DNA of 64,000 nucleotides, taken from positions 1,075,744 to 1,139,743 of the forward strand of contig MU004230.1 in assembly GCA_010405405.1 (NCBI GenBank), read 5' to 3'. The notes below the pieces were generated by a model. The model worked only from the letters and a program-made list of their open reading frames with translations, made no database searches and was not told where the DNA came from. This document shows positions 4,169 to 44,210 of this stretch, in pieces (positions within the stretch are counted from its first letter, which is position 1; each line of letters starts with the position of its first letter). The DNA comes from Microthyrium microscopicum (lineage: Eukaryota > Ascomycota > Dothideomycetes > Microthyriales > Microthyriaceae). The translations under genes were made by a program, and so were the position numbers.

Positions 4169-7100
4169 ATGGAGACGACTGACTCTCCCAAATCGTTTCG
4201 ATTCCGCTTAAATTGCATAGATCAATACCAGGCGACACCAAGCTGGTTGGATCCCGATTTAGCGACTGTTGGTCAATTCGATGCGCCAACAGTCCCAGTT
4301 ATACGCATCTTTGGAGCCACAGAGACAGGCCAGAAAGTGTGTGCCCATATCCATGGCGCATTGCCATATTTATATGTGGCGTATAATGGTAGTATTGAGG
4401 TAGATCAAGGTAAGATGGCTTTTCTAGAACCGACAGGTAAATTTCTCACGATTCATATAGTGAAAACTTATATACAAACTTTTGCAACCTCCACCGATCA
4501 TGCTCTGGCCCTTTCTTATCGTCACGACGCCTACCAAAAGCGGCCGAAGAGTTATGTTGCGCACATATCGCTTGTAAAAGGTGTACCTTTTTATGGCTAT
4601 CATGTTGGATATCGTCATTTTCTCAAGGTTTATCTCCGCAACCCAGCCAATATGACCCGGCTTGCAGACCTTCTTGGTCAAGGAGCGATTCTATCTCGAC
4701 CAATGCAACCATTCGAAAGTCACTTGCAGTATCTACTCCAATGGATGTGCGACTACAATCTCTATGGTTGCGGGCTGATTGTGTGTAAGAAAGCTTTGTT
4801 TCGCCAGCCATTTCCAGAATCAGTGGACCCTCGGTCCTATATTGGAGCGCGGGAGCTGGATCCTGTTCTTGACTCTCTTGACTTCCCACGCCAATCGCAT
4901 TGTGCGATTGAGGTTGACATTCAAGTCCAAGACATTCTGAATCGATTTGATGTACAGCAACGCAACATACACCAAGACTTTAAAGAGCGTCTGCTCAAAA
5001 CAGGTCCAACTGACAAGTTCGTTCCTTCTATGGCCGATCTTTGGCGCGACGAAACCATCCGGCGCAAGAAAAGACTGGGCCTGAATTCCATGGATCCTAG
5101 TCCTTTCCCTCCGGAAGCATTAGCTACCATGAGTGCAGACTCTCGATTGACTAGAGGCAACTGGGTACACGAAGAAGAACATCTTGCGACTATAGACAAC
5201 ATCATCGAGGCTGAAAGAAAGTCAGAGAAACCAACCTTTGAAAGTTTCCTTCAATCGCAATTGAGAGACAGCAGCGCCAAATCGGTCTACGACAGTGTAG
5301 AGGACCTCTACACGGGCAATATTGCTTCCTCTTTGTTCTACCAGTCTATCCACCAGCAAAACAAAGCGGCAACTCAGCCTAATGTAGACGAGAACGCTAT
5401 AGGAGAACTGAACGACGTTCTAAACAACGAGGCACCCCAAGAAGAACCGGTCAATATATTAGCTGATGATGTCAAACCTATTGCATTGGTGTCGCGGAGT
5501 AAGTCAGGTATCAGCGAGGTTGGTGGGGAGTCTAATCACACCCATACGCGCCCACAAGACAACGCAAAAGCGGCTACACAGTTATCGCAGGCCAGTATCA
5601 AGGCTAGCGGAACATCAAAACAGCGTGTCGTCTCCTTTGCTGTGACAAAGCCCAATTCAGGACAGTCGCCAGTCGAGAGAACCCCCTTGAAGCGCCATAA
5701 TTCTCTGCCTGAGCTAGATCAACGGCCAAGCAAGATTGTGCGAATATTTCCTTCAACAATGGACGTGGGAGGCAAGCTTCAGATTCAGCCCGAGCCGGTT
5801 CAATCTCAAGATGCTACTTTCCCCAAATGTGCTCACTTGAAGCTCGCTCCCGGTGCGAGGCTCATGCTCTTCCATCGGCCATCACCTTCACCAAGCAGTA
5901 TCACGTCCAAACAGTTTGAAATGGACCCCACAGCAACGAAGTACAAGGCCGCGTTCTACAGCGTAGCCTCTGATGCGAAGGATCAGCCGAACGTCCGACC
6001 TGTAGAGCCACTATATGACGGGTTTTCTGATCTGGATGTCGGTCGTAAGGTGCATGAACTAAATGTGCTCATCGGTTCCGCAACGGAAGACCAAGCCAAA
6101 TCAGACAAATCAGAGAGTCGGAAACGGAAGAGCGACGATAGCTCATTTAGGTGCTGGCAAATTGGTAAACCACCGCCGTCAGTTGCTTTTGTGAACAAAT
6201 GGGTTCTCAAAAAGGAAGCAAACCACCAGCTACTTACCAAGGCGCCTCAAACCCTAAACCCGCCGGTCAAAATCAAAGAGCCAAAAGCCAAGAACAAGTC
6301 CAAAGGAAAGAAAAAAGCCAAATCTAAAGCGAAAGCTTCCAAAAAGAAACAGCCAGCGAATGGGCACTCAAGTCACAAACAGGGTACCCAATACATGAGC
6401 GTGATGAGCCTGGAAGTTCACGTACGAACACGAAAAGACTTGGTTCCCGACCCGGCGGAAGATGAAATATGCTGCATATTCTGGAGTGTCCAGATGGAAG
6501 CCGCCAGCACTCAACTTCGGAGCGGTATAATCATGGTTGTTTCTGAAGATGAGTCATCAGCTCAATTTGAGCGGCTTGTAGGCGCTGAGATTCACTATGA
6601 AACATCTGAACTTGATGCTATCAATAATTTGGTCGACATCGTCCGCGATATAGATCCTGACATTCTATGTGGCTTCGAAGTCCAAAAGTCAAGTTGGGGA
6701 TATCTCATTGAACGTGCGCGCCTCAAGTTTGAATTTGAGGTCTGCGATGAGCTATCTCGAGTCAATTTTGGTTCCAAGGGACGTTTCGGCAAAGATGTTG
6801 ACAGATGGGGATATACCAAAACTTCAGCTATACGCATAACTGGTCGGCATATGATCAACATTTGGAGAGCCATGAGAAGCGAATTGAACTTACTCCAGTA
6901 CACGATGGAAAATGTTGTGTTCCGCGTGCTGCACAAACGCATTCCGCACTACAGTTTTGAAACTTTGTCGAGGTGGTTCGAAGAGTGTCCTCTCCGAGAT
7001 GTTGCCAAAGTCCTCAATTATTTCCTCCAAAGGACTCAATTGAATCTGCATCTTCTTGGAGGAGTTGATCTAGTGGCCAAAACGAGTGAGCAGGCACGCC

Positions 7101-9061
7101 TTCTGGGTGTCGACTTCTTCTCGGTCATTTCCAGAGGCTCCCAATTCAAAGTCGAGTCGTTGATGTTCCGAATTGCAAAGCCTGAGAGTTATGTTCTCGT
7201 CTCTCCCAGCAGGAAACAAGTCGGTCAGCAAAACGCGTTGGAATGCCTACCATTGGTCATGGAACCTCAAAGCAACTTCTACAACTATCCTGTCCTAGTC
7301 CTTGATTTTCAGAGCTTATATCCCAGTATCATGATCGCGTATAACTACTGTTACTCGACATGCCTGGGACGTGTCTCAAGCTGGCGAGGTCAGAACAAGA
7401 TGGGCTTCACAGAATATGACAGAGAGTCTGGTATATTAGAGTTGCTTGGCGATCAGGTCAACGTCGCTCCCAATGGAATGATATACGTTCGTCCAGAAGT
7501 CCGGAGGAGCCTGCTGGCCAAGATGTTGACCGAGATTCTCGAGACAAGAGTGATGGTCAAAAGTGGCATGAAAGAAGACAAGAAGGACCGCGCTCTGCAG
7601 CGACTGTTGAACAACAGACAGCTTGCATTGAAACTCATTGCAAATGTTACATATGGCTATACATCGGCGTCTTTCAGCGGAAGATTGCCATGTGCAGAGA
7701 TTGCCGACAGCATTGTGCAGTCTGGCCGCGAAACTCTCGAAAGAGCCATAGCAATCATTCATGCAGAGGAGAGATGGGGCGCCGAGGTTGTCTACGGCGA
7801 CACCGACTCACTGTTCGTTCACTTGAAGGGCAAGTCGCGAGAAGAAGCATTTAAGATCGGGAAAGATATCGCTGACACTATCACGAAAGCCAACCCACGG
7901 CCAATGAAGCTCAAGTTTGAAAAGGTATACCACCCATGCGTTCTATTGGCAAAGAAACGATATGTCGGTTACAAATATGAGCATCCTGGTCAGCAAAAGC
8001 CGGAATTCGACGCCAAAGGCATTGAAACTGTTCGCCGAGATGGAACGCCATGTGAACAACGCATTGAAGAAAAATCTTTGAGGCTGTTGTTCAGAACCCG
8101 AGATCTCAGTCGAGTCAAAGCATACTTCCAAAAAGAATGCTCCAAGATCATGATCGGCCAAATCAGCATTCAGGACCACATTTTCTCTCGCGAGGTAAAA
8201 CTGGGTTCATACTCCGAAAAAGGCCCTCCTCCCCCTGGCGCCCTCATTTCCACCCGCAAAATGCAGGACGACCCGCGAAAGGAGCCGCAATATGGGGAAC
8301 GTGTGCCATTTGTCGTCATTGCGGGTCCTCCTGGCTCCCGACTCATGGATCGATGTGTTGACCCCGACGTCTTGCTTCACGACGACCAGGTTGAGCTTGA
8401 TGCAGACTACTATATCTCCAAGAACCTGATACCACCCTTGCACCGGATCTTTTCCCTCGTTGGCGCAAATGTGAAGGGCTGGTACGACGAGATGCCCAAA
8501 ATACAAAAGTTGCGAGCTCTTCAGCTTGACCCAATTAGTGATGGAGATTCTGCACCTGAAGAAAATGTGACCGGCAAAAAAGCTCTCGAAGCCTATATGA
8601 ATGAAAAGTGCTGTTTTATTTGCTCAGCGCAATTCTCAATGTTCGACGACATGGATGATGTATCAGACTCTTCAGACAACGAGGCAACTGACGACGAGGA
8701 TACAAGAGGATGTGAATCAAAGCAAACAAATAACGATGCTATCACCGATGACGAGCGCTACAGCTTCAAAAACCTTGAAGGAGTTATTTGCAAAGACTGT
8801 ATGCGTAATATACCTGCATCTACGCATCTGCTGTATACTCAACAAGCAGCTCAGGAAACAAAGGTCAAACAGATCGACAGCCTTTGCCAGCACTGCGCTA
8901 GGCTGGATCACGGCGAATCCGTTGAATGTGATAGTAGAGATTGCCCTGTCTACTATGTCCGGACCAAGGAGACAAGTAATCTCAGGTCACTCCGCACTAA
9001 GGTACAGGTTCTGATGCGCAAGGTACGATCGGATGGGAATGGTAATGATGAGCTCTTTTGA
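4169..9061 (+). CDS. rev3: DNA polymerase zeta catalytic subunit Rev3
   Basis: B-family polymerase for translesion DNA synthesis and mutagenic bypass. The frame is open over 1,630 codons from the ATG at 4169. The N-terminal block begins FRFRLNCIDQYQATPSW, as in Rev3. A long polar, Lys-rich linker follows (about residues 300-760), then the exonuclease-like region and the polymerase motifs: DFQSLYPSIMIAYNYCYST (motif A), KLIANVTYGYTSASFSGRLP (motif B) and YGDTDS (motif C). Two C-terminal cysteine clusters follow: CCFIC...CKDC (CysA) and CQHC...CDSRDC (CysB, the likely iron-sulfur site for Rev7/Pol31 docking). A 51-nt intron is almost certainly present at 4410-4460 (GTAAGA...CATATAG). It has no stop and length 3n, so the open frame hides it. 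Removing it restores the family spacing before STDHALALSYR and gives 1,613 residues. Confidence 0.96.
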   Translation: METTDSPKSFRFRLNCIDQYQATPSWLDPDLATVGQFDAPTVPVIRIFGATETGQKVCAHIHGALPYLYVAYNGSIEVDQGKMAFLEPTGKFLTIHIVKTYIQTFATSTDHALALSYRHDAYQKRPKSYVAHISLVKGVPFYGYHVGYRHFLKVYLRNPANMTRLADLLGQGAILSRPMQPFESHLQYLLQWMCDYNLYGCGLIVCKKALFRQPFPESVDPRSYIGARELDPVLDSLDFPRQSHCAIEVDIQVQDILNRFDVQQRNIHQDFKERLLKTGPTDKFVPSMADLWRDETIRRKKRLGLNSMDPSPFPPEALATMSADSRLTRGNWVHEEEHLATIDNIIEAERKSEKPTFESFLQSQLRDSSAKSVYDSVEDLYTGNIASSLFYQSIHQQNKAATQPNVDENAIGELNDVLNNEAPQEEPVNILADDVKPIALVSRSKSGISEVGGESNHTHTRPQDNAKAATQLSQASIKASGTSKQRVVSFAVTKPNSGQSPVERTPLKRHNSLPELDQRPSKIVRIFPSTMDVGGKLQIQPEPVQSQDATFPKCAHLKLAPGARLMLFHRPSPSPSSITSKQFEMDPTATKYKAAFYSVASDAKDQPNVRPVEPLYDGFSDLDVGRKVHELNVLIGSATEDQAKSDKSESRKRKSDDSSFRCWQIGKPPPSVAFVNKWVLKKEANHQLLTKAPQTLNPPVKIKEPKAKNKSKGKKKAKSKAKASKKKQPANGHSSHKQGTQYMSVMSLEVHVRTRKDLVPDPAEDEICCIFWSVQMEAASTQLRSGIIMVVSEDESSAQFERLVGAEIHYETSELDAINNLVDIVRDIDPDILCGFEVQKSSWGYLIERARLKFEFEVCDELSRVNFGSKGRFGKDVDRWGYTKTSAIRITGRHMINIWRAMRSELNLLQYTMENVVFRVLHKRIPHYSFETLSRWFEECPLRDVAKVLNYFLQRTQLNLHLLGGVDLVAKTSEQARLLGVDFFSVISRGSQFKVESLMFRIAKPESYVLVSPSRKQVGQQNALECLPLVMEPQSNFYNYPVLVLDFQSLYPSIMIAYNYCYSTCLGRVSSWRGQNKMGFTEYDRESGILELLGDQVNVAPNGMIYVRPEVRRSLLAKMLTEILETRVMVKSGMKEDKKDRALQRLLNNRQLALKLIANVTYGYTSASFSGRLPCAEIADSIVQSGRETLERAIAIIHAEERWGAEVVYGDTDSLFVHLKGKSREEAFKIGKDIADTITKANPRPMKLKFEKVYHPCVLLAKKRYVGYKYEHPGQQKPEFDAKGIETVRRDGTPCEQRIEEKSLRLLFRTRDLSRVKAYFQKECSKIMIGQISIQDHIFSREVKLGSYSEKGPPPPGALISTRKMQDDPRKEPQYGERVPFVVIAGPPGSRLMDRCVDPDVLLHDDQVELDADYYISKNLIPPLHRIFSLVGANVKGWYDEMPKIQKLRALQLDPISDGDSAPEENVTGKKALEAYMNEKCCFICSAQFSMFDDMDDVSDSSDNEATDDEDTRGCESKQTNNDAITDDERYSFKNLEGVICKDCMRNIPASTHLLYTQQAAQETKVKQIDSLCQHCARLDHGESVECDSRDCPVYYVRTKETSNLRSLRTKVQVLMRKVRSDGNGNDELF

Positions 9062-14897: not shown

Positions 14898-16951
<2,054 letters not shown>

Positions 16952-18683: not shown

Positions 18684-19984
18684 ATGAATGTTAATCCACC
18701 AGCGGCGACGCCAGTCGTCCTACCATTTACTCACCCACGAGCCACTGATCCAGTCAATCCAGCTCCACGACGTCTTCCAGGCGTGAAATGGATGGGAGAT
18801 ACTTCGAGAAACCACACCGTTGCCATGATCGGAGAGTTTACAGGAACCTTCCTCTTCCTATTCATGGCATTCACTGGAACACAAGTGGCAAACACATATG
18901 CCGCTAATAGCAACGTCCACGGCCCAAATCCTAGTGTACTACTTTACATTTCTTTGAGTTTTGGCTTTTCTCTTGCGGTGAATGCTTGGGTGTTCTTTCG
19001 AATTTCAGGAGGTCTTTTCAATCCAGCTGTTAGTGATCTGATTGACTTTTGATGACATAGTCACTCACGTTTATAGGTCACGTTTGGTCTCTGTCTCATT
19101 GGGGCTGTTGGATGGCTTCGGGGTTTACTTGTTGCAATTGCACAAATAGTCGGAGCGATCGCAGCAGCGGCTGTCGTCTCGGGTCTCTTTCCTGGTCCCC
19201 TTTTAGTGGAAACGAGAGTCGCCGCAGGGACCAGTCTCCAGAGAGCCGTCTTCATCGAAATGTTCTTGACAGCACAGCTAATCCTCACAATGTATGCAAT
19301 TCCGTCGTGTTTACATGTGATACTGATGAAGTTGTAGTTTCATGCTTGCGGCAGAAAAACATCGCGGAACCTTTCTTGCTCCGGTCGGAATTGGCCTCGC
19401 TCTTTTCATTGCGGAACTGGCTGGTAAGCTCGAGCTCGATATTCCATAGCCCATCTTCTGACATTTTGTAGGCGTGTATTGGACTGGCGGATCGCTCAAC
19501 CCTGCTCGTTCATTTGGACCCGAAGTTGCTATTGGTAATTTCAAATCCGATCACTGGGTTTATTGGGTTGGTCCAATGCTCGGTGCTCTTATAGCAGTGA
19601 TTTTCTATCGCCTCATCAAAATCTTGGAATACGAAACTGCCAATCCAGGCCAAGATTATGATGGAAGATCCACTCGTACTGCAGATGCAGGTCAGTCTTT
19701 CGATTCCCATGTCTCGTGAAGATCTTGCAACTGATTATCTCGTAGGAGTAGATGGCCACTCTGATGGCACATATCCCACCAGTCGAGGCGGACCTCATCG
19801 ACAGCCATCTAGCGAGATAAGCTCCAGAGCATTCCCCATGCCAGCAAAAGCCCAGCTACCCATGAAAAACAGCCACGCTATCTCAACGAGTCCTACTAGT
19901 GAGTTTGGTCGAAGTGGTCGAACGGTCCACCCTGGCCTTGACACATTCTCACGAAGCAACGATGTCGAAAAAGCTCAGGTCTGA
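18684..19984 (+). CDS. Aquaporin / aquaglyceroporin-type channel (MIP family)
   Basis: Membrane channel for water or small neutral solutes. Exons 18684-19028, 19077-19291, 19338-19423, 19472-19690 and 19746-19984 join to 367 residues. Both pore signatures are present: [11 protein letters not shown] in loop B (the NPA is at the end of exon 1) and [12 protein letters not shown] in loop E. Six hydrophobic spans are visible, with a long N-terminal cytosolic stretch rich in Pro and a polar C-terminal tail of about 90 residues. Ser or Arg after the second NPA (NPARS) is normal. The last intron (GTCAGT...CTCGTAG) is inferred: reading through it would end the protein at 19719, so two C-termini are possible. 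The TTG-started extension at 18654 is not used. Substrate specificity cannot be read directly. Confidence 0.92.
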
Positions 19985-27631: not shown

Positions 27632-27907
27632 ATGACAAGAGCACCAACAATCTTCACTTCCCAGGTAAGCCAGACGTCCTCCCACCGCTCTTTTGACATG
27701 AATTCATTGGCAAACCCCGCCAAAACCCTTATCTCACTATCCGTTTTCACCCTTATTCATGCTCGCCGCTGTTAGCTTCGTTAGAAGTTCAATTGACTGA
27801 CTGTATTATGTAGGACTACATCTCTGGTTGGTCTTTTCCCGCTTTGTCGGTGACTCTGAATACTAACTTCATTCTTTGACCACGTCTGGAAGGCCTCAGT
27901 AAACTAA
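27632..27907 (+). CDS. Arginine attenuator peptide (uORF of CPS small subunit)
   Basis: Upstream reading frame that in Neurospora arg-2 and yeast CPA1 stalls ribosomes when arginine is plentiful. Three pieces give 24 codons, the same length as the Neurospora peptide: exon 27632-27664 (start through FTSQ), exon 27814-27826 (DYIS plus one base) and 27879-27907 (DHVWKASVN, stop TAA at 27905). The core reads FTSQDYISDHVWKA against FTSQDYLSDHLWRA in Neurospora, and the critical Asp at position 12 is kept. Intron 1 (27665-27813) is GTAAGC...TAG. Intron 2 (27827-27878) starts GTTGGT, has a perfect TACTAAC, but ends in TG. The nearest AG is 14 nt later and would destroy the conserved C-terminal half. 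The family match is seen; stalling function is inferred. Confidence 0.85.
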
Positions 27908-27985
27908 AACACCCCACAACAACCCGATCCCGCTTACTACTACAATAAATCAATTGACGATACAACAAATCGATTGAACATCAAG

Positions 27986-29491
27986 ATGCTTTCCCTTTTC
28001 CGAACCCGATGTGGCCCAAAGGCCTCGAGTGCCTTTGGCTCTATGGTTCAATCCTCAGCTCGCGTCCGATACATGGCAACTGTCCAAACAACCACAACTG
28101 GTCGTGTACCACAGCTCACTCGACCGAAAGGAACTCCTATATCTCGTGAACGTGCTACTTTGACTATCAAGGTAAGACTGCGTTGACCACGCTTGACATT
28201 GGCATTAACTGACTTGGCATAGGACGGCCCCATCTTTCACGGCAAATCCTTTGGAGCAAAGGCCAACATATCCGGTGAAGCAGTTTTCACTACATCCCTG
28301 GTTGGATATCCCGAATCAATGACAGACCCCTCATATCGTGGACAAATCCTCGTCTTCACCCAACCCTTGATTGGAAATTACGGAGTGCCATCTTCTGCTC
28401 GCGATGAGCACGGCCTGCTTCGTTACTTCGAGTCTCCAAATATTCAAGCTGCTGGCATCGTTGTGTCTGATGAAGCAGAACATCACAGCCATTGGACCGC
28501 CGTTGAAAGTCTAGCGGACTGGTGTGCTCGGGAAGGAGTTCCAGCAATTTCTGGAGTCGACACCCGAGCCATCGTAACATACCTGAGAGAACAAGGTTCA
28601 TCTTTGGCTCGATTGGCTATTGGTGAAGAATACGATGCAGATGAAGATGAGGCATACATTGATCCTGAAGGTATCAACTTGGTCAGACGGGTTTCTACAA
28701 AAGCACCTTTCCACGTGGCATCAAACAAGGGCGATCTACACGTTGCTTTGCTCGATTGCGGAGTCAAAGAGAACATTCTTCGAAGCTTGGTTAGCCGAGG
28801 AGCATCTGTAACAGCTTTCCCATTCGATTACCCGATCCACAAGGTGGCTCATCACTTTGATGGTGTTTTCATTTCCAACGGACCGGGTGACCCAACCCAT
28901 TGTCAGGATACAGTTTACCACTTGAAGAAGCTGATGGATGACCACGAACAGCTTCCAATCATGGGAATCTGCATGGGCCATCAGTTACTTGCCTTGGCAG
29001 CCGGAGCCAAGACGATCAAGCTCAAGTATGGAAATCGAGCTCATAACATCCCCGCATTGGATCTGACGACCGGAAAATGCCACATCACTTCGCAGAACCA
29101 CGGTTATGCGGTTGATGCTACTTCGCTTTCAGCAGAGTGGAAAGAGTATTTCATCAACCTCAACGATTCCAGCAACGAAGGCATGATCCATAAGACACGA
29201 CCAATCTTTTCAGCACAGTTCCATCCAGAAGCAAAGGGTGGACCGCTTGATTCTGCTTGTAAGTAGCATGCATCATTGGCAAATGACCAAATACTAATTC
29301 TTACAGATCTGTTCGATGCCTATATGGAGAGCGTCTCAAAATACAAGCAGTCGAATGCAAAGTTTCAGAAAGATAACAAGCCTTCGCCGCTCTTGGTTGA
29401 TTTGCTCAGCAAAGAGCGAGTGGGCGTACATCCAGGTCTTCCAGATTTCCATGGACATGCAGCTGGCATGGTGGAGGCACAGGCGGCGTAG
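27986..29491 (+). CDS. Carbamoyl-phosphate synthase, arginine-specific, small (glutaminase) subunit
   Basis: Glutamine amidotransferase subunit supplying ammonia for carbamoyl phosphate in arginine synthesis; mitochondrial in filamentous fungi (Neurospora arg-2 type). Exons 27986-28171, 28223-29258 and 29307-29491 join to 468 residues. The N-terminus is a basic, Ser/Arg-rich presequence ([18 protein letters not shown]). The CPSase small-chain domain starts at [19 protein letters not shown] across the first splice. The class I glutaminase triad is visible: Cys in [15 protein letters not shown] (about residue 311), and His/Glu in [15 protein letters not shown]. The C-terminal region ends [20 protein letters not shown]. 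Translation is probably controlled by the attenuator uORF upstream. Confidence 0.96.
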
Positions 29492-36058: not shown

Positions 36059-38607
36059 ATGGTCAATGCGGCTCCTGGCTTCCGCCAACGTTTCATTTTG
36101 TTCCTAGAAGACCACCTGAATGAGAACAAAGATCCTAACTATCACTACAGACGAGGTGGCGAGTCCATCTACTCCGTCTCGACGGCTGACGGATATATCG
36201 AAGAAGAGCCAACTGTGAAAGAGTATTTGAAAGAGATTACACCCACCGGAAAAGAGGTTCTTGGCTATTTCTCAGGCTTGTTTCCCTTCATACACTGGAT
36301 TACCCGGTACAACCTCCAATGGCTCGCTGGTGACCTAATCGCTGGTATCACGGTCGCCGCTGTCGTCGTTCCCCAAAGCATGGCTTACGCGAAGTTGGCG
36401 AATCTCGCGCCAGAATTTGGTCTCTACTCTTCCTTCATGGGTGTTATAATCTACTGGTTCTTCGCCACATCCAAGGATATTACCATTGGGGTATGTTTCT
36501 GATATCACTTCTTGGTCGATTTGATCTGAAGTACTGACTTTTCATAGCCTGTCGCAGTTCTATCTACCCTAGTTGGTACTGTCGTCACAGACGTTCAAAA
36601 GCATAACCCAAAGATACAAGGCTACGTTATTGCAAGCGCGCTTGCTGTAATATCTGGTGCTGTGGTTACCTTCATGGGCTTGATCCGCATAGGCTGGATT
36701 GTTGATTTCATCTCTTTGACTGCTATCGCCGCCTTCATGACTGGATCTGCCATCAATATTGCTGTAGGACAAATTCCGACCTTGATGGGTATCACTGGCT
36801 TCAATACACGCGATTCGACTTACAAGGTTGTGATCAATATCTTGAAGCATCTGGGAAGAACCAAGCTCGACGCCGCCATGGGTCTCACTGCATTGACTAT
36901 GCTGTACGTGATCCGCATTGGATGCAGTCAAGCATCAAAGCGATGGCCTCGGAAGCAAAAGATCTTCTTTTTCCTCTCCACTCTCCGCACGGTTTTTGTC
37001 ATTCTCCTCTACACCATGATCAGCTGGCTAGTCAACCGTCACCACAAGAAGAAGCCTAGTTTCGTTATCCTTGGCACTGTTCCTCGAGGTTTCCAACATG
37101 CCGGAAAGCCATTCATTGACAAGCACTTGATATCAGCATTTGCCGGACATTTGCCCTCGACAATTATTGTTATGTTGATAGAGCATATCTCCATTTCCAA
37201 ATCTTTCGGTCGAGTAAACAATTATCAGATCAATCCTTCCCAAGAACTTGTTGCCATGGGCGTTACCAACCTTCTCGGACCATTCCTAGGCGCCTATCCT
37301 GCGACAGGTTCATTCTCCCGTACTGCTATCAAGTCAAAGGCTGGCGTCCGAACTCCACTTGCCGGCGTAATCACTGGTCTTGTGGTTCTCATCGCTATTT
37401 ACGCTTTGACCTCGGTGTTCTTTTACATCTCCAGCGCTGCGCTTGCGGCCGTTATTATCCATGCCGTAGGAGATTTGATAACGTCACCAAAGACACTGTA
37501 CAAGTTCTGGAAAATCTCGCCACTGGAGGTGCCAATCTTCCTCGTAGGAGTTTTTGTAACTGTTTTCAGCAGCATTGAGAATGGTATCTACTGCACAATC
37601 ATCATATCTGCGGTACTGCTCGTCTTCCGACTTGCAAAGGCTCGAGGTCGATTCCTCGGCAGAGTCAAGATTCACTCCGTTGTTGGTGAACCCGGATCTG
37701 CTGAACATTTGCAGTCCAAGGGAGAATTTGCATCCACCAGCGTCGTTAGCGCATTCGAGGATTCCAAGGCCACCCGCAATGCTTTCTTGCCAATTGATCA
37801 TCATGATGGCTCCAATCCGCTGATCGAGCCTGTGGCACCATACCCAGGCGTCTTCATCTTCCGCTTCTCTGAAGGCTACAACTACCCCAACTGCTTCCAC
37901 TATCTCGACTATCTCACCAAATATATCTTCGACAACACCCAGCGGACTAATCCTCAAGCCTTCCCAAGACTCGGTGTAAGTTTTCTCCCTAAAAACCCGA
38001 TACTCAAGACTAACGTTTGTAGGATCGTCCATGGAACGACCCAGGTCCACGCCGTGGCAAATCCCTCCCAGTCAACAACAACCCCCATCTCAAAGCCATC
38101 ATCCTCGATTTCTCCTCCGTCAACAACGTCGACGTCACATCCGTCCAAAATCTCATCGACGTCCGCAACCAACTCGACCGCTACACCGCCCCTGAGACCG
38201 TCGAGTGGCATTTCGCCTCCATCAACAACCGCTGGACCAAACGTGCCCTCGCCGCCGCCGGCTTCGGCTACATCAACGAGCCCACCGAGTCTGGCGAGCG
38301 CCATGTCTGGAAGCCAATCTTCAGCGTCGCCGAGATTGGCGGCGACGATTCAGCCGCCCACGCTGCCCAAGAAATTGAGCGCAGAAATACAGTCTCCAAC
38401 GACCCAGAGACTGGGTTTAAGAGCCACGCCAATGGTGCGACAGTCGGCAAGGTCGCTGCAGTGCATGGTGTCAACCGCCCGCTCTTCCATGTGGACTTGA
38501 CCAGTGCCGTGCAAAGTGCCATCCACTCAGCACGCAACCGGCCACAGGCGCAGGTTGAGTTTGGCACGCCATCGCCGCAAACAGAGGCAGAAGCGGAGCT
38601 TAAGTAG
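36059..38607 (+). CDS. SulP-family sulfate permease with STAS domain
   Basis: Proton-coupled sulfate uptake transporter of the plasma membrane (SUL1/SUL2, CYS-14 group). Exons 36059-36490, 36548-37975 and 38023-38607 join to 814 residues. The SulP signature region is visible: LAGDLIAGITVAAVVVPQSM and AYAKLANLAPEFGLYSS. About ten to twelve hydrophobic spans follow, including IRIGWIVDFISLTAIAAFMT, GVTNLLGPFLGAYPATGSFS and SSAALAAVIIHAVGDLI. A C-terminal STAS domain starts around residue 560 (PGVFIFRFSEGYNYPNC; AIILDFSSVNNVDVTSVQNL). The last splice is GGT|GTAAGT...TTTGTAG|GAT and gives RLGDRPWNDPGPRRG. It converges on the RNA polymerase gene. In this window ATP sulfurylase, the next enzyme, is 19 kb upstream. 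Confidence 0.94.
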
Positions 38608-39332: not shown

Positions 39333-42300
39333 TTAAGCTGATAGCTTCAAGCGCTCAAGTCGTTGTTCTAATGCCATTAGCTTTGCATGACCATTGGTTT
39401 CCTCCTGAACCCAGACATCAGGCTCATCGTCAGAGTCAGAATCTTCCTGAGACAAGGTCTCTGCTGTCGAGGGTGTTTCCGCTCCTCCCGCAATTGCTTC
39501 ATCGCCACTGACACCTTCGATTGGCGTCGAGTCTTTCGTGGTGTTGCTAGAAGTATCTGCGGAGGAGGTGGTGTCTAGCTTCAAGCTGAAGCTAGGCCGT
39601 TGGGTCCAGTATGGAGCAATGTCCTTACCGATTTCACGGGTTGTAACACTCGTCGTGTTTGTTGCTTCCACCCATAGTGGTCTCGAATCAGGAACTTCCT
39701 CTTGCGTGTTGATAGTTGTAGGGGTCATCACTTTGTGTCTATAATTTAGCGGTAAGACTGTCGTAGTGCTTCCTGCGCTAGATGGTGGTCCTGTTGATTC
39801 CGAACGGCCACCTCCTCGCAAATCACGAGACTCGGGAGATTCCATGGGAGATATAGATGGTGTTTGCGGACTGACTGAGCGAGAAGCCGAGCTCAGCAAT
39901 ACCACATCCTCACCCTCAGCAGACGCCACAATCATAGCATCTTGTTCGTCATCACTGGCCATCTTCTCGAGCTTTTGGAAAGCTATTGCTTCTTCAGAGT
40001 TTACCTCCGACATCAGAGATGGAGTCATGACCCCCGGTGTGCTAACCGTCTTCTCAGATGCCTGGTCGTTGCCAACCTCTCCTGGATAACCTCTAAGGTC
40101 ATCGCTCGAGCCATCATCAAACATTGGCTGTAAGTCAGTTGGGCTGACCGGAACCACAACCTTCTTCGCTACTCGTCGTTGTCCAGAAGAAAGGATGCTG
40201 ACTTTCTGATCTTGGTGATATTGGCCTGTGGCTATAGCACCGAGTTCTCGAACAAAAATCCAGGGGAACGAGATTAGTGGCATGTCCTTTGCAGTTTTCT
40301 GTCGAAGTGGCATAGTTTGTCCCTCATCATTCACGCTCGTTTGCTCACATTCCAGGAGAGCCGAACGAACCTCTTCCGAGGTGACCTTGTACATACCTGC
40401 AATGAAAGGGCCCATGAGATGATATTCATTTCCGCCAGCAACTCGAATGCACTCCTCTCGAAAGTAGTCTTTGTGACTTTGGGCGATCTGACCCAACTCT
40501 TCGGCAAAGGTGTAATCCTTTTTCTCAAAGTTGTGGTTGATCACAAAGGCTGTGAAAACCTCGTACTCTGTAGCAATGCCGTACTTGGCCATGATACGAC
40601 GGATGTCTGAGTCATATTCTACTTTGATTGCTGCAATCTTTTCGCGGAGATCGTGGTCTAGATCATAGGCCGAAAGTATTCGCTCATCAAATGGGGTGTC
40701 CCACACAGGCTCGAAATCAACTCGCTCAATCATGTCATAGAGCTGGCCCAGAATTTGTTTCGAAGTGTATGTCTGATATTTCGTTTTATACCGCTTTTCC
40801 ATGAAATGAGGCCACTTCGGCGGTTGCTGATGACGTTCCATTACAGCTGGAATGCCGCTCTTCGCATAATCGACAGCGTCAGAATGTAACTTGGCTAAGC
40901 CAATACACTTTTCGTCCATAACTCCATCCTTCTTCTGGTCAGCCCAAGCCAGATGGGCATGAGCAATCTTTGGCAGCACGTCATTCTTCATGTACTGTAT
41001 GAAAAATTCAATCATATCATTGGTAGTGACGTCTTTGTCGAGGACGCGAGGCTTTTGAGCTTCGTACTCCATGGGCTTCTCGTTCCACTTTTTGGGAAAC
41101 AAACGAGGATCCCAGATGACGAGGTAGTCATCCCCGTCGAGGTCTCCACCTGAACACATGCTTGGAACATCACGGTCTCCGGTTTGGGCAAAAACGACTA
41201 CGTTTTTCAGGTGACGCAGTTCTGGCTTGTCGACTGCGCGGGCCATTCGAATATCACCAGGGTGTAAGGATGGGTTGCGAGCAACAGCCACCAAGCCATT
41301 AAGCACTCGATAAGTTCCGCGACGCTCATCATCAACTTGAACGAAAACCTCTGGTAAAGCTGTCATTCTTTCTTCCAAAGAAGCGTCATCAGGAACTTGT
41401 CGGCCGACGTAATAGCCATCGAGGACACCGTATTCGTCTACGCAACCTAGGAGGCACCCACCAGTAGACCGAGAGCCATCACTGACAAAGATCTTTGCTT
41501 TCTCTTTCAAGTACTTGACGGTCCAACTTCGCCATAGACGGAGAACGGAGACTAGAAATGGATCATTCGAGTCCATAAAGCCATCTAAGACCATTCCAGC
41601 GACCATAATGGTCATCTGATTGAAGTCGACGTTTTTCTGAAGTAATGATAAGGCAACGGACTTGTCACTCATCGCAAGCTCCAAATCAGCCAACATTGAC
41701 TTGAGCATGTCGATAAATGCAGAACCATCGACGCCCAGGGCGGTAAGAACTAGAATGATTTGACGATTTAGAGTAGCTGAAACAAACTGCGAGACTCTAA
41801 TGACTTCAAGACCAAGATTCCGACCCTCGAACTTGTTCTGCGAAGGTCGAATATGAATTTCCGAGGTTTGAACTTCTGGCGCAACAGCAAGAACGCCCTT
41901 GCAGCCGGCAATGCGGAATTGTACCACAGATGGAGGATCATTGATCTTGTTGGGAAGCTTGAATTCGGCTGCAATCATTTTCGCAAGGAATAATGATATT
42001 TTGCCTACACCATCGGTAAAACATCGATCATTTCGATTGACATCAGCCAAGCTAGTCTTGATCGTGACTCCCGTGCTAATGGCTCGTGTTGTGGAGAAAT
42101 TTTGACCGTGTCTTGCACAGTATTTTGACACAATGCGGATGGATGCCATGTCACCGAATTCACGTCGTATGAGATCCGCTGTCGTGTTCGACAGAGTTTG
42201 TGGCGCAAAGAAATAAGCACTGTGCTCACGGAACTGGGAATTGCCAAAACCAAGAAACTCGTATCGACGACCTCCAATGAACAGACCATTCGTCATGGCT

Positions 42301-44210
42301 CGACGTACACGATCAAAGACGTTCTCGTTCGAACTGTCCATTTGCGAGTTTAATCTTCCACCATCTTCTTCAGTGAACTTGATGCGAAGAAATCGGTCTT
42401 CAATTTCTCGAAATTTACGTAAAACTCGATTAGAGGTCTCCATCACCGGGGATGAAAGTCGGACTGTGGTTGGGGTGAGGGTGCCCGAGTAGTTAAGAGC
42501 ACAATACGGAGGTATTTTCTTGAATAAAGACTTTCGAACAGGAGTGAGATCAAATATATCCATTGGGTCGTATACTCGCTTTTTGTGGTCGGCCACCTTC
42601 TCCAGGACCGCTCGAGCTGAGTCTTCACTCAATGAGTTGAGCTTTCGGAGAAAATCTTCTGTCATATTGTGCTCATTCAAGAAGCCTTGGGATAGGCAAA
42701 CATCGAGTTGGTAGCGCACGGAAAAGGGAAAGCTGGAGATATCACTACCCATCTGCAGCAATGATTCCGAGTGATGGGCATCTAAATGATCCCAGATGGT
42801 GGATTTGACTTTACTCTTGAAGTTGAAGCCGGTGTTTTCGATGACTCGAATGTTGAAATCTTGCAAAGCGTCTTTCAATTCCTGGTATCGATAGGTTTGT
42901 CGTCCTGAGCCGAAAGTGAAGCGAAGGGTAGTCCAGCGGCCAAGATCAAGGCGAGCAAGTTCATTATGCAATGCAATTGGGGACTGCTGCAAAAGGCTCT
43001 CATTTTGAGTTGAGACGACCTCTGTTTGGCGATGCCAGCTACTCCAGTCTTTCCATTCACTGTTCTGGTCTTCACCATCGCGATTGCTGTGGGTGGCTGC
43101 GAGATCATTGGTCTGACGGAAATAATCTGGCGGACTATCGAGGCAGATAACCAAGGCAAAGCCTCCACCTTTTTGATTGATTTGATGGATTTCTGTAAGC
43201 GAGTTGAACTTCATACGAAACCGATAGTTTTTGGCAGATTGTCTATTGGTGTTCATGCCAGGTGTACCAGATTCATCGAAATGAAAGCGTACGTCAATTT
43301 CTTCTCGACGAAGCTTACACTGAAAAGTGAAACCAGAGCCAACGCCTAATGGTTGTATGCTTTCCATTTGCATCATCTCGTTTGGTCCAGTCATAACCCC
43401 AAAGTCAAGCCCAGAAGCAACGAGCGTTGTCAAAGCATTGTGTTTTTTGTTCGGGTTGATGGGGCTAGGAACTTGTTCCTCAATTCGAGGAGGAGTAAGT
43501 TTGACGTTCAAGGTCAAAGTCTTGAGCTCATTGTCAACCCAAGTCTGGAATCTCACCTGTCTCTCTTCCCAGAAAGCGTATTGCATAGGAGGGAGATAGG
43601 TAATATAAGCGGCTAGTTCTTGTTTGCTGATAGAGATGTTGGTGATAGTGCCATATCGTTCCATGCACTTGTAGATTGGCTGCGTATCGAACATGCCGGG
43701 GGACAGTGGAAATATCTTGACTTTGATCAAATCCCAATTCCGCCATTCATGATGATCCTCTGAACGATATTGGTTCTGGCGAGGTGGAGATGGATGATAA
43801 GCTGAGTATGAGGAGTTCCGTCCCGAGTACTGTGAATTGGCTCGAGTTGACTGCTGCTGGAACTGGCGTGGAGAAGTATTCGGTCGATTATAACGACCTT
43901 GATTGAGATTCGGTGAGACAACGGCACGAGAACTAGAGCTCGTTGATCTGAAGTCTGGGGGTTGACCAGTAAATGGCCTATTGCGACGATTGGTCTGGGA
44001 ACCAGGAGTGTCCCGGAAATTTGGCATGGCTGGAAGGATTCGGTTACGCTCTGGCTCGCTAGCGGTCGACGTGGTATTGGTAGCTGGCATAGACCGACTA
44101 GAAGCTGGTGTGGCTGTTCTAACATCGCTCTCAGTGGCCGAGTTATTCATCTGCGCAGGCGTGACCCGTTTGCGAGCGCCCCATTCGGCTTTTTTGGATC
44201 TGAACGCCAT
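39333..44210 (-). CDS. RNA-dependent RNA polymerase (RNA silencing, QDE-1/SAD-1/Rdp1 family)
   Basis: Cellular RdRP that makes double-stranded RNA for Dicer in quelling, meiotic silencing or heterochromatin pathways. A single exon of 1,625 residues. The first 160 residues are Ser/Arg/Asn-rich and disordered. Folded N-terminal segments precede the RdRP core: FTDGVGKISLFLAKMIAAEF, VQFRIAGCKGVLAV, RPSQNKFEGRNLGLEVIRVS and the catalytic CSGGDLDGDDYLVIWDP (about residue 1023). The core ends with ISFPWIFVRELGAIATG. The last 280 residues are an acidic, Ser/Thr-rich tail. All aspartates of the DLDGD site are present. I lean to the SAD-1/Rdp1 clade from the overall length and N-terminal layout, but a tree would be needed to separate it from QDE-1. 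Confidence 0.95.
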   Translation of the reverse strand: MAFRSKKAEWGARKRVTPAQMNNSATESDVRTATPASSRSMPATNTTSTASEPERNRILPAMPNFRDTPGSQTNRRNRPFTGQPPDFRSTSSSSRAVVSPNLNQGRYNRPNTSPRQFQQQSTRANSQYSGRNSSYSAYHPSPPRQNQYRSEDHHEWRNWDLIKVKIFPLSPGMFDTQPIYKCMERYGTITNISISKQELAAYITYLPPMQYAFWEERQVRFQTWVDNELKTLTLNVKLTPPRIEEQVPSPINPNKKHNALTTLVASGLDFGVMTGPNEMMQMESIQPLGVGSGFTFQCKLRREEIDVRFHFDESGTPGMNTNRQSAKNYRFRMKFNSLTEIHQINQKGGGFALVICLDSPPDYFRQTNDLAATHSNRDGEDQNSEWKDWSSWHRQTEVVSTQNESLLQQSPIALHNELARLDLGRWTTLRFTFGSGRQTYRYQELKDALQDFNIRVIENTGFNFKSKVKSTIWDHLDAHHSESLLQMGSDISSFPFSVRYQLDVCLSQGFLNEHNMTEDFLRKLNSLSEDSARAVLEKVADHKKRVYDPMDIFDLTPVRKSLFKKIPPYCALNYSGTLTPTTVRLSSPVMETSNRVLRKFREIEDRFLRIKFTEEDGGRLNSQMDSSNENVFDRVRRAMTNGLFIGGRRYEFLGFGNSQFREHSAYFFAPQTLSNTTADLIRREFGDMASIRIVSKYCARHGQNFSTTRAISTGVTIKTSLADVNRNDRCFTDGVGKISLFLAKMIAAEFKLPNKINDPPSVVQFRIAGCKGVLAVAPEVQTSEIHIRPSQNKFEGRNLGLEVIRVSQFVSATLNRQIILVLTALGVDGSAFIDMLKSMLADLELAMSDKSVALSLLQKNVDFNQMTIMVAGMVLDGFMDSNDPFLVSVLRLWRSWTVKYLKEKAKIFVSDGSRSTGGCLLGCVDEYGVLDGYYVGRQVPDDASLEERMTALPEVFVQVDDERRGTYRVLNGLVAVARNPSLHPGDIRMARAVDKPELRHLKNVVVFAQTGDRDVPSMCSGGDLDGDDYLVIWDPRLFPKKWNEKPMEYEAQKPRVLDKDVTTNDMIEFFIQYMKNDVLPKIAHAHLAWADQKKDGVMDEKCIGLAKLHSDAVDYAKSGIPAVMERHQQPPKWPHFMEKRYKTKYQTYTSKQILGQLYDMIERVDFEPVWDTPFDERILSAYDLDHDLREKIAAIKVEYDSDIRRIMAKYGIATEYEVFTAFVINHNFEKKDYTFAEELGQIAQSHKDYFREECIRVAGGNEYHLMGPFIAGMYKVTSEEVRSALLECEQTSVNDEGQTMPLRQKTAKDMPLISFPWIFVRELGAIATGQYHQDQKVSILSSGQRRVAKKVVVPVSPTDLQPMFDDGSSDDLRGYPGEVGNDQASEKTVSTPGVMTPSLMSEVNSEEAIAFQKLEKMASDDEQDAMIVASAEGEDVVLLSSASRSVSPQTPSISPMESPESRDLRGGGRSESTGPPSSAGSTTTVLPLNYRHKVMTPTTINTQEEVPDSRPLWVEATNTTSVTTREIGKDIAPYWTQRPSFSLKLDTTSSADTSSNTTKDSTPIEGVSGDEAIAGGAETPSTAETLSQEDSDSDDEPDVWVQEETNGHAKLMALEQRLERLKLSA

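Follow-up and report, generated by a model that had tools for sequence, protein, structure and literature searches.

An arginine attenuator uORF upstream of CPA1 in Microthyrium microscopicum is split by two introns, the second apparently ending in TG

The leader of the CPA1/arg-2 gene of Microthyrium microscopicum carries an arginine attenuator upstream open reading frame (uORF) that has the Neurospora length and is interrupted by two introns. The 24-codon peptide requires that the second intron end in TG. A working TG splice, probably partial and mixed with other products, is our leading reading of this arrangement, tentatively held at a little short of even. The window examined here is a stretch of 64,000 nucleotides from a genome of 36.9 Mb in 20 contigs, and all features of the locus lie on its forward strand.

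The uORF opens in exon 1 (27632–27664), which encodes MTRAPTIFTSQ from an AUG in weak context, with C at -3. Intron 1 (27665–27813; 149 nt, GTAAGC to TGTAG) is canonical and lies in phase 0. It is longer than most introns predicted here and contains several AGs. Exon 2 (27814–27826) consists of the 13 nt GACTACATCTCTG, which supply DYIS and the first base of a D codon. Intron 2 (27827–27878; 52 nt) runs from GTTGGT to TTCTTTG without an internal AG and closes with the TG (UUG) at 27877–27878. Exon 3 (27879–27907) completes the D codon and adds HVWKASVN and a TAA stop. Joined, the three exons encode the 24-codon peptide MTRAPTIFTSQDYISDHVWKASVN. A search for FTSQDY as a contiguous coding pattern gave no match, an expected outcome given that intron 1 separates Q from D. 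The end of the uORF, GCCTCA/GTAAAC (27898–27904), resembles a 5' splice site.

Membership in the attenuator family is supported by profile, structure, and position. Against the Pfam family PF08252 (Leader_CPA1), the TG-spliced peptide scored 41.5 bits (E 8.7e-11; cut-off 18.5 bits). The form spliced at the nearest downstream AAG reached 17.0 bits and the intron-retained form 17.1 bits, so that of these three only the TG-spliced form passed the cut-off. The peptide also matched the 24-residue chain 2xl1_A (E 6.3e-07), the only such peptide among the solved structures listed, with 12 of 20 residues identical over residues 2–21. A first-pass annotation of the window had proposed a 24-codon attenuator of Neurospora length interrupted by two introns, which exon joining, the PF08252 score, and the 2xl1_A match bear out.

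The uORF immediately precedes the CPA1/arg-2 coding region. The main open reading frame (27986–29491; exons 27986–28171, 28223–29258, and 29307–29491) encodes 468 amino acids and was identified as CPA1 by protein search. All 7999 scored candidates in that search fell within E 0.001, and the best named match was the arginine-specific small chain of Coniosporium apollinis CBS 100218, a Dothideomycete (83% identity over 98%). Complete CPA1 proteins at up to 86% identity were also matched on short, transcript-like contigs. Scanning with CPA1 found no relative in viral contigs; in genome contigs it returned 51 loci, all titled bacterial and none fungal among the matches listed. Between 27401 and 28000, the ATGs at 27632 and 27986 are the only ones outside intron 1, which leaves a single uORF in the spliced leader, and 78 nt separate its stop from the main AUG. 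Inefficient initiation at the uORF is reported for CPA1 (PMC7969011), and the C at -3 of the uORF AUG versus the A at -3 of the main AUG is in keeping with that report.

Several other features of the window were recorded. A long unbroken open reading frame at 4169–9061 encodes a DNA polymerase zeta (REV3-like) protein, and another at 39333–44210 an RNA-dependent RNA polymerase (PF05183). An ATP-sulfurylase fused to an APS kinase (PF01747, PF01583) occupies 14898–16016, and a sulfate permease (PF00916) lies at 36662–38500. Within 19500–19900, a frameshift-like change of frame near 19656 coincides with the end of a reading frame and may reflect an error, an intron, or a real end; the product of that frame, judged by a motif, is presumably aquaporin-like.

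The necessity of the TG end was established by enumeration. With intron 1 removed, all excisions starting at 27814–27879 and ending up to 27889 were considered, whatever their terminal dinucleotides. DHVWKA was placed in frame by 355 of them, and three restored the full core FTSQDYISDHVWKA. These three are one junction in three spellings (TG..TT, GG..TT, and GT..TG) that arise from repeated bases, and none ends in AG. The excision of 27827–27878 is the sole one with a GT donor, among all tried, to restore the core, as the first-pass annotation had held. No AG acceptor in the enumerated set joined DHVWKA to upstream codons. Single excisions from the unspliced leader gave a similar picture, with 975 placing DHVWKA in frame and no AG-ended case among those of at least 40 nt. 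The attenuator peptide is thus out of reach of ordinary GT-AG splicing. This is an oddity of splicing and leaves the family identity of the sequence unaffected.

By the measure of an ab initio caller, intron 2 is ordinary for this genome except in two respects, the TG end and a rather weak GTTGGT donor. Intron statistics were drawn from the window plus 20 further 10-kb stretches; the caller required GTNNG and a branch motif and favored YAG ends, which biases its acceptor counts. The donor GTTGGT occurred in 2 of 164 predicted introns. The branch site TACTAAC (27861–27867) places the branch A at 27866, 12 nt before the TG end, so that the expectation of a normal 52-nt intron with a perfect branch site holds. 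Perfect TACTAAC occurs six times on both strands of the window (128 kb of strand), once in intron 2; given this rarity, its presence at the correct place is not due to chance. Among 53 ab initio introns that scored 10 or more and had a good branch motif, the branch lay a median of 12 nt from the end, and in 35 of them at 9–16 nt. The TG therefore sits at the usual distance.

Other peculiarities of intron 2 were tried and rejected. Its lack of AG is at chance level, since 4096 of 20000 base shuffles also contained none. It is not a mobile or repeated intron (introner), as its sole match in the genome, flanks included, was itself. An RNA switch was likewise discarded: the fold was no better than that of shuffled sequences (z 0.45; 130 of 200 shuffles as stable), and an Rfam search returned no match at E<=1.

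Two AGs compete with the TG, and both precede the AAG of the main start codon. They stem from the lysine codon AAG and from a TCA-GTA codon pair, and they lie 14 and 21 nt past the TG, which puts them 26 and 33 nt beyond the branch A. Splicing at the AAG (27891–27892) would give a 33-codon peptide whose stop ends at 27948. The CAG (27898–27899), which belongs to the better acceptor class, would give the 17-codon peptide MTRAPTIFTSQDYISVN with the shared stop at 27907. Retention of intron 2 leads to 32 codons and an in-frame TGA at 27877–27879, in which the TG is followed by A27879, the first base of exon 3. All three products lack DHVWKA, and none extends into the main open reading frame. The initial description of the AAG as leading to a longer tail without DHVWKA stands; its account of a single competing AG does not, because the CAG had been overlooked. 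The DHVWKA half holds the invariant WKA/WRA end, which adjoins the stall site. Since the non-TG products lack it, the corresponding leaders are predicted to be free of arginine stalling, judging by what is reported for the family (PMC7969011, PMC7049704).

Under the leading reading, the uORF would contain two U2-type introns, the second ending at UUG. A lariat would form at TACTAAC, where the next 25 nt hold no AG, and in part of the transcripts the UUG, preceded by a U tract and located 12 nt downstream, would be docked as the 3' splice site. These mRNAs would encode the 24-codon peptide and stall the terminating ribosome at high arginine. The remaining transcripts, spliced at AAG 27892 or CAG 27899 or retaining the intron, would carry a short uORF that does not stall and that scanning ribosomes could bypass, so that a leaky fraction would be built into the attenuator. 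Codons 16–24 and the stop are intact at Neurospora length even though they are reachable via the TG alone, which suggests selection that acted until recently or is still ongoing.

Several observations count against use of the TG. In human genes, AG>TG mutants are reported to activate neighboring AGs, the TG itself not being used (PMC2374985), and two competing AGs are available here. The donor is uncommon. Both Prp18 and Slu7 are encoded in the genome, which rules out Prp18 absence as a cause, and so there is no default reason to expect the relaxed fidelity of Prp18-less yeast. In a frame-joining scan over 264 kb, 16 of 506 tested TG-ended candidate introns passed, versus 17 of 524 for CA, 10 of 319 for CC, and 36 of 570 for AG. 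Genome-wide use of TG acceptors was rejected on this basis, since TG performed no better than background dinucleotides.

Evidence from relatives comes from one protein model. Among the best 120 of the 7999 protein matches, only one, a C. apollinis model (P0009), carries PF08252. This model reads HKNLNDYISDHLWKAS and then continues into the CPA1 body, with DYISDHLWKAS unbroken, and its exon-exon structure looks like an annotation fusion. It exits the peptide after KAS, at the same point as the splice-site-like sequence at the end of the M. microscopicum uORF, before entering the CPA1 body. Intron 2 is probably absent in C. apollinis, because a 13-nt exon would be hard for gene finders to recover; if so, the intron would be lineage-specific. 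A query with residues 114–158 of the fused model retrieved itself alone (1 of 2 candidates), and a 40-residue query around the M. microscopicum peptide found no match.

Two alternatives, both unlikely yet serious, would remove the need for a working TG. In one, the TG does not exist in the living organism, being a one-base assembly error or a minor allele picked during assembly, so that the true intron is canonical and the attenuator ordinary. The rest of intron 2 is indeed canonical, a single assembly is available, and the DNA matches found represent the same locus. Small assembly errors are possible, as a scan of 264 kb flagged 11 frameshift-like places, two of them in the window. However, two reading frames in the window stay open over 1630 and 1625 codons, CPA1 has an unbroken frame, and the genome falls into only 20 contigs, with no runs of N noted in the sampled stretches.

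In the other, comparably doubtful, the TG is real and marks a recent acceptor loss. Transcripts would then use AAG 27892 or CAG 27899 or retain the intron, the stall half would go unmade, and CPA1 in this lineage would have escaped arginine attenuation or weakened it. This is the behavior described for human AG>TG mutants (PMC2374985), and two AGs stand ready 14 and 21 nt past the TG. The fungus should tolerate a loss of attenuation, as it would still produce the enzyme. An intact and unused DHVWKASVN is predicted by this alternative, and DHVWKASVN is intact. On the other hand, branch-to-acceptor distances of 26 and 33 nt would be unusual, given that 26 nt or more was seen in 9 of 53 predicted introns with a good branch motif, and the change would have to be young, as no codon past the intron has decayed.

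A regulated version of TG splicing is quite improbable. It would add a splicing layer over control by the nascent peptide, in which TG use gives the stalling 24-codon attenuator and use of the CAG, the AAG, or retention gives non-stalling leaders. The ratio would be set by physiological state (arginine, or a second-step factor such as Prp18), making the feedback switchable at the 3' splice site. Least probable is another splice architecture (a nested intron, a U12-type intron, or another non-canonical end): nested fungal introns (stwintrons) are documented and intron 1 is long for the genome at 149 nt, but any set of excisions, including the consecutive ones outside our enumeration, ends at the TCT/GACCACGTC junction, before which intron 2 has no AG.

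If the TG is used, as the leading reading holds, this would be a natural fungal U2 intron whose sole functional product depends on a non-AG acceptor. The output of the leader, arginine-regulated CPA1, is easily assayed, so that the accuracy of 3' splice-site selection, and what it does to a switch based on a nascent peptide, would become directly testable. If the TG is unused, the locus either illustrates cleanly how a recent splice-site change disabled an attenuator or shows that individual bases deserve checking.

Comparable splice sites described in other eukaryotes speak for use of the TG. A survey of animals, fungi, and plants presents the 3' end as the more flexible side of introns (PMC7072748), and 22 GT-TG introns (0.024%) are annotated in Ganoderma lingzhi (PMC11590231). 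TG acceptors in human genes are reported as TG-AG tandems with the two sites at most 28 nt apart (PMC2374985). Intron 2 resembles these U2 tandems in having a pyrimidine before the TG (TTG, 27876–27878), a purine at +1, and AGs 14 and 21 nt on. The human tandems are transcript-supported and described as always alternative (PMC2374985), whereas the fungal TG is known from sequence alone and is the sole site giving a functional product. Saccharomyces cerevisiae lacking Prp18 uses UUG sites near the branch point, aided by an upstream U tract (PMC10711555). The M. microscopicum site shares with these BG sites a UUG close to the branch point and after a U-rich stretch. Use of UUG in S. cerevisiae is described mainly as a mutant effect (PMC10711555), unlike the situation in M. 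microscopicum, whose genome has Prp18.

Coupling of alternative splicing to uORFs is also known in fungi, with TPP riboswitches as an example (cited in PMC5640933). The locus would be similar in that a splicing choice would set which uORF the leader carries; it differs from TPP riboswitches in that searches here gave neither an RNA structure nor an Rfam family. In titles and abstract openings, with much subscription literature outside reach, we found no description of an arginine attenuator uORF with a TG acceptor or a choice of splicing. With the arg-2/CPA1 attenuators (PF08252; Neurospora crassa, PDB 2xl1), the M. microscopicum uORF shares its place upstream of CPA1, its 24 codons, the core FTSQDY-SDH-W-A, a weak AUG context, and its standing as the only uORF that precedes the main AUG once the leader is spliced. 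It departs from that family in one respect, namely that its stall half is readable only through a non-AG 3' splice site.
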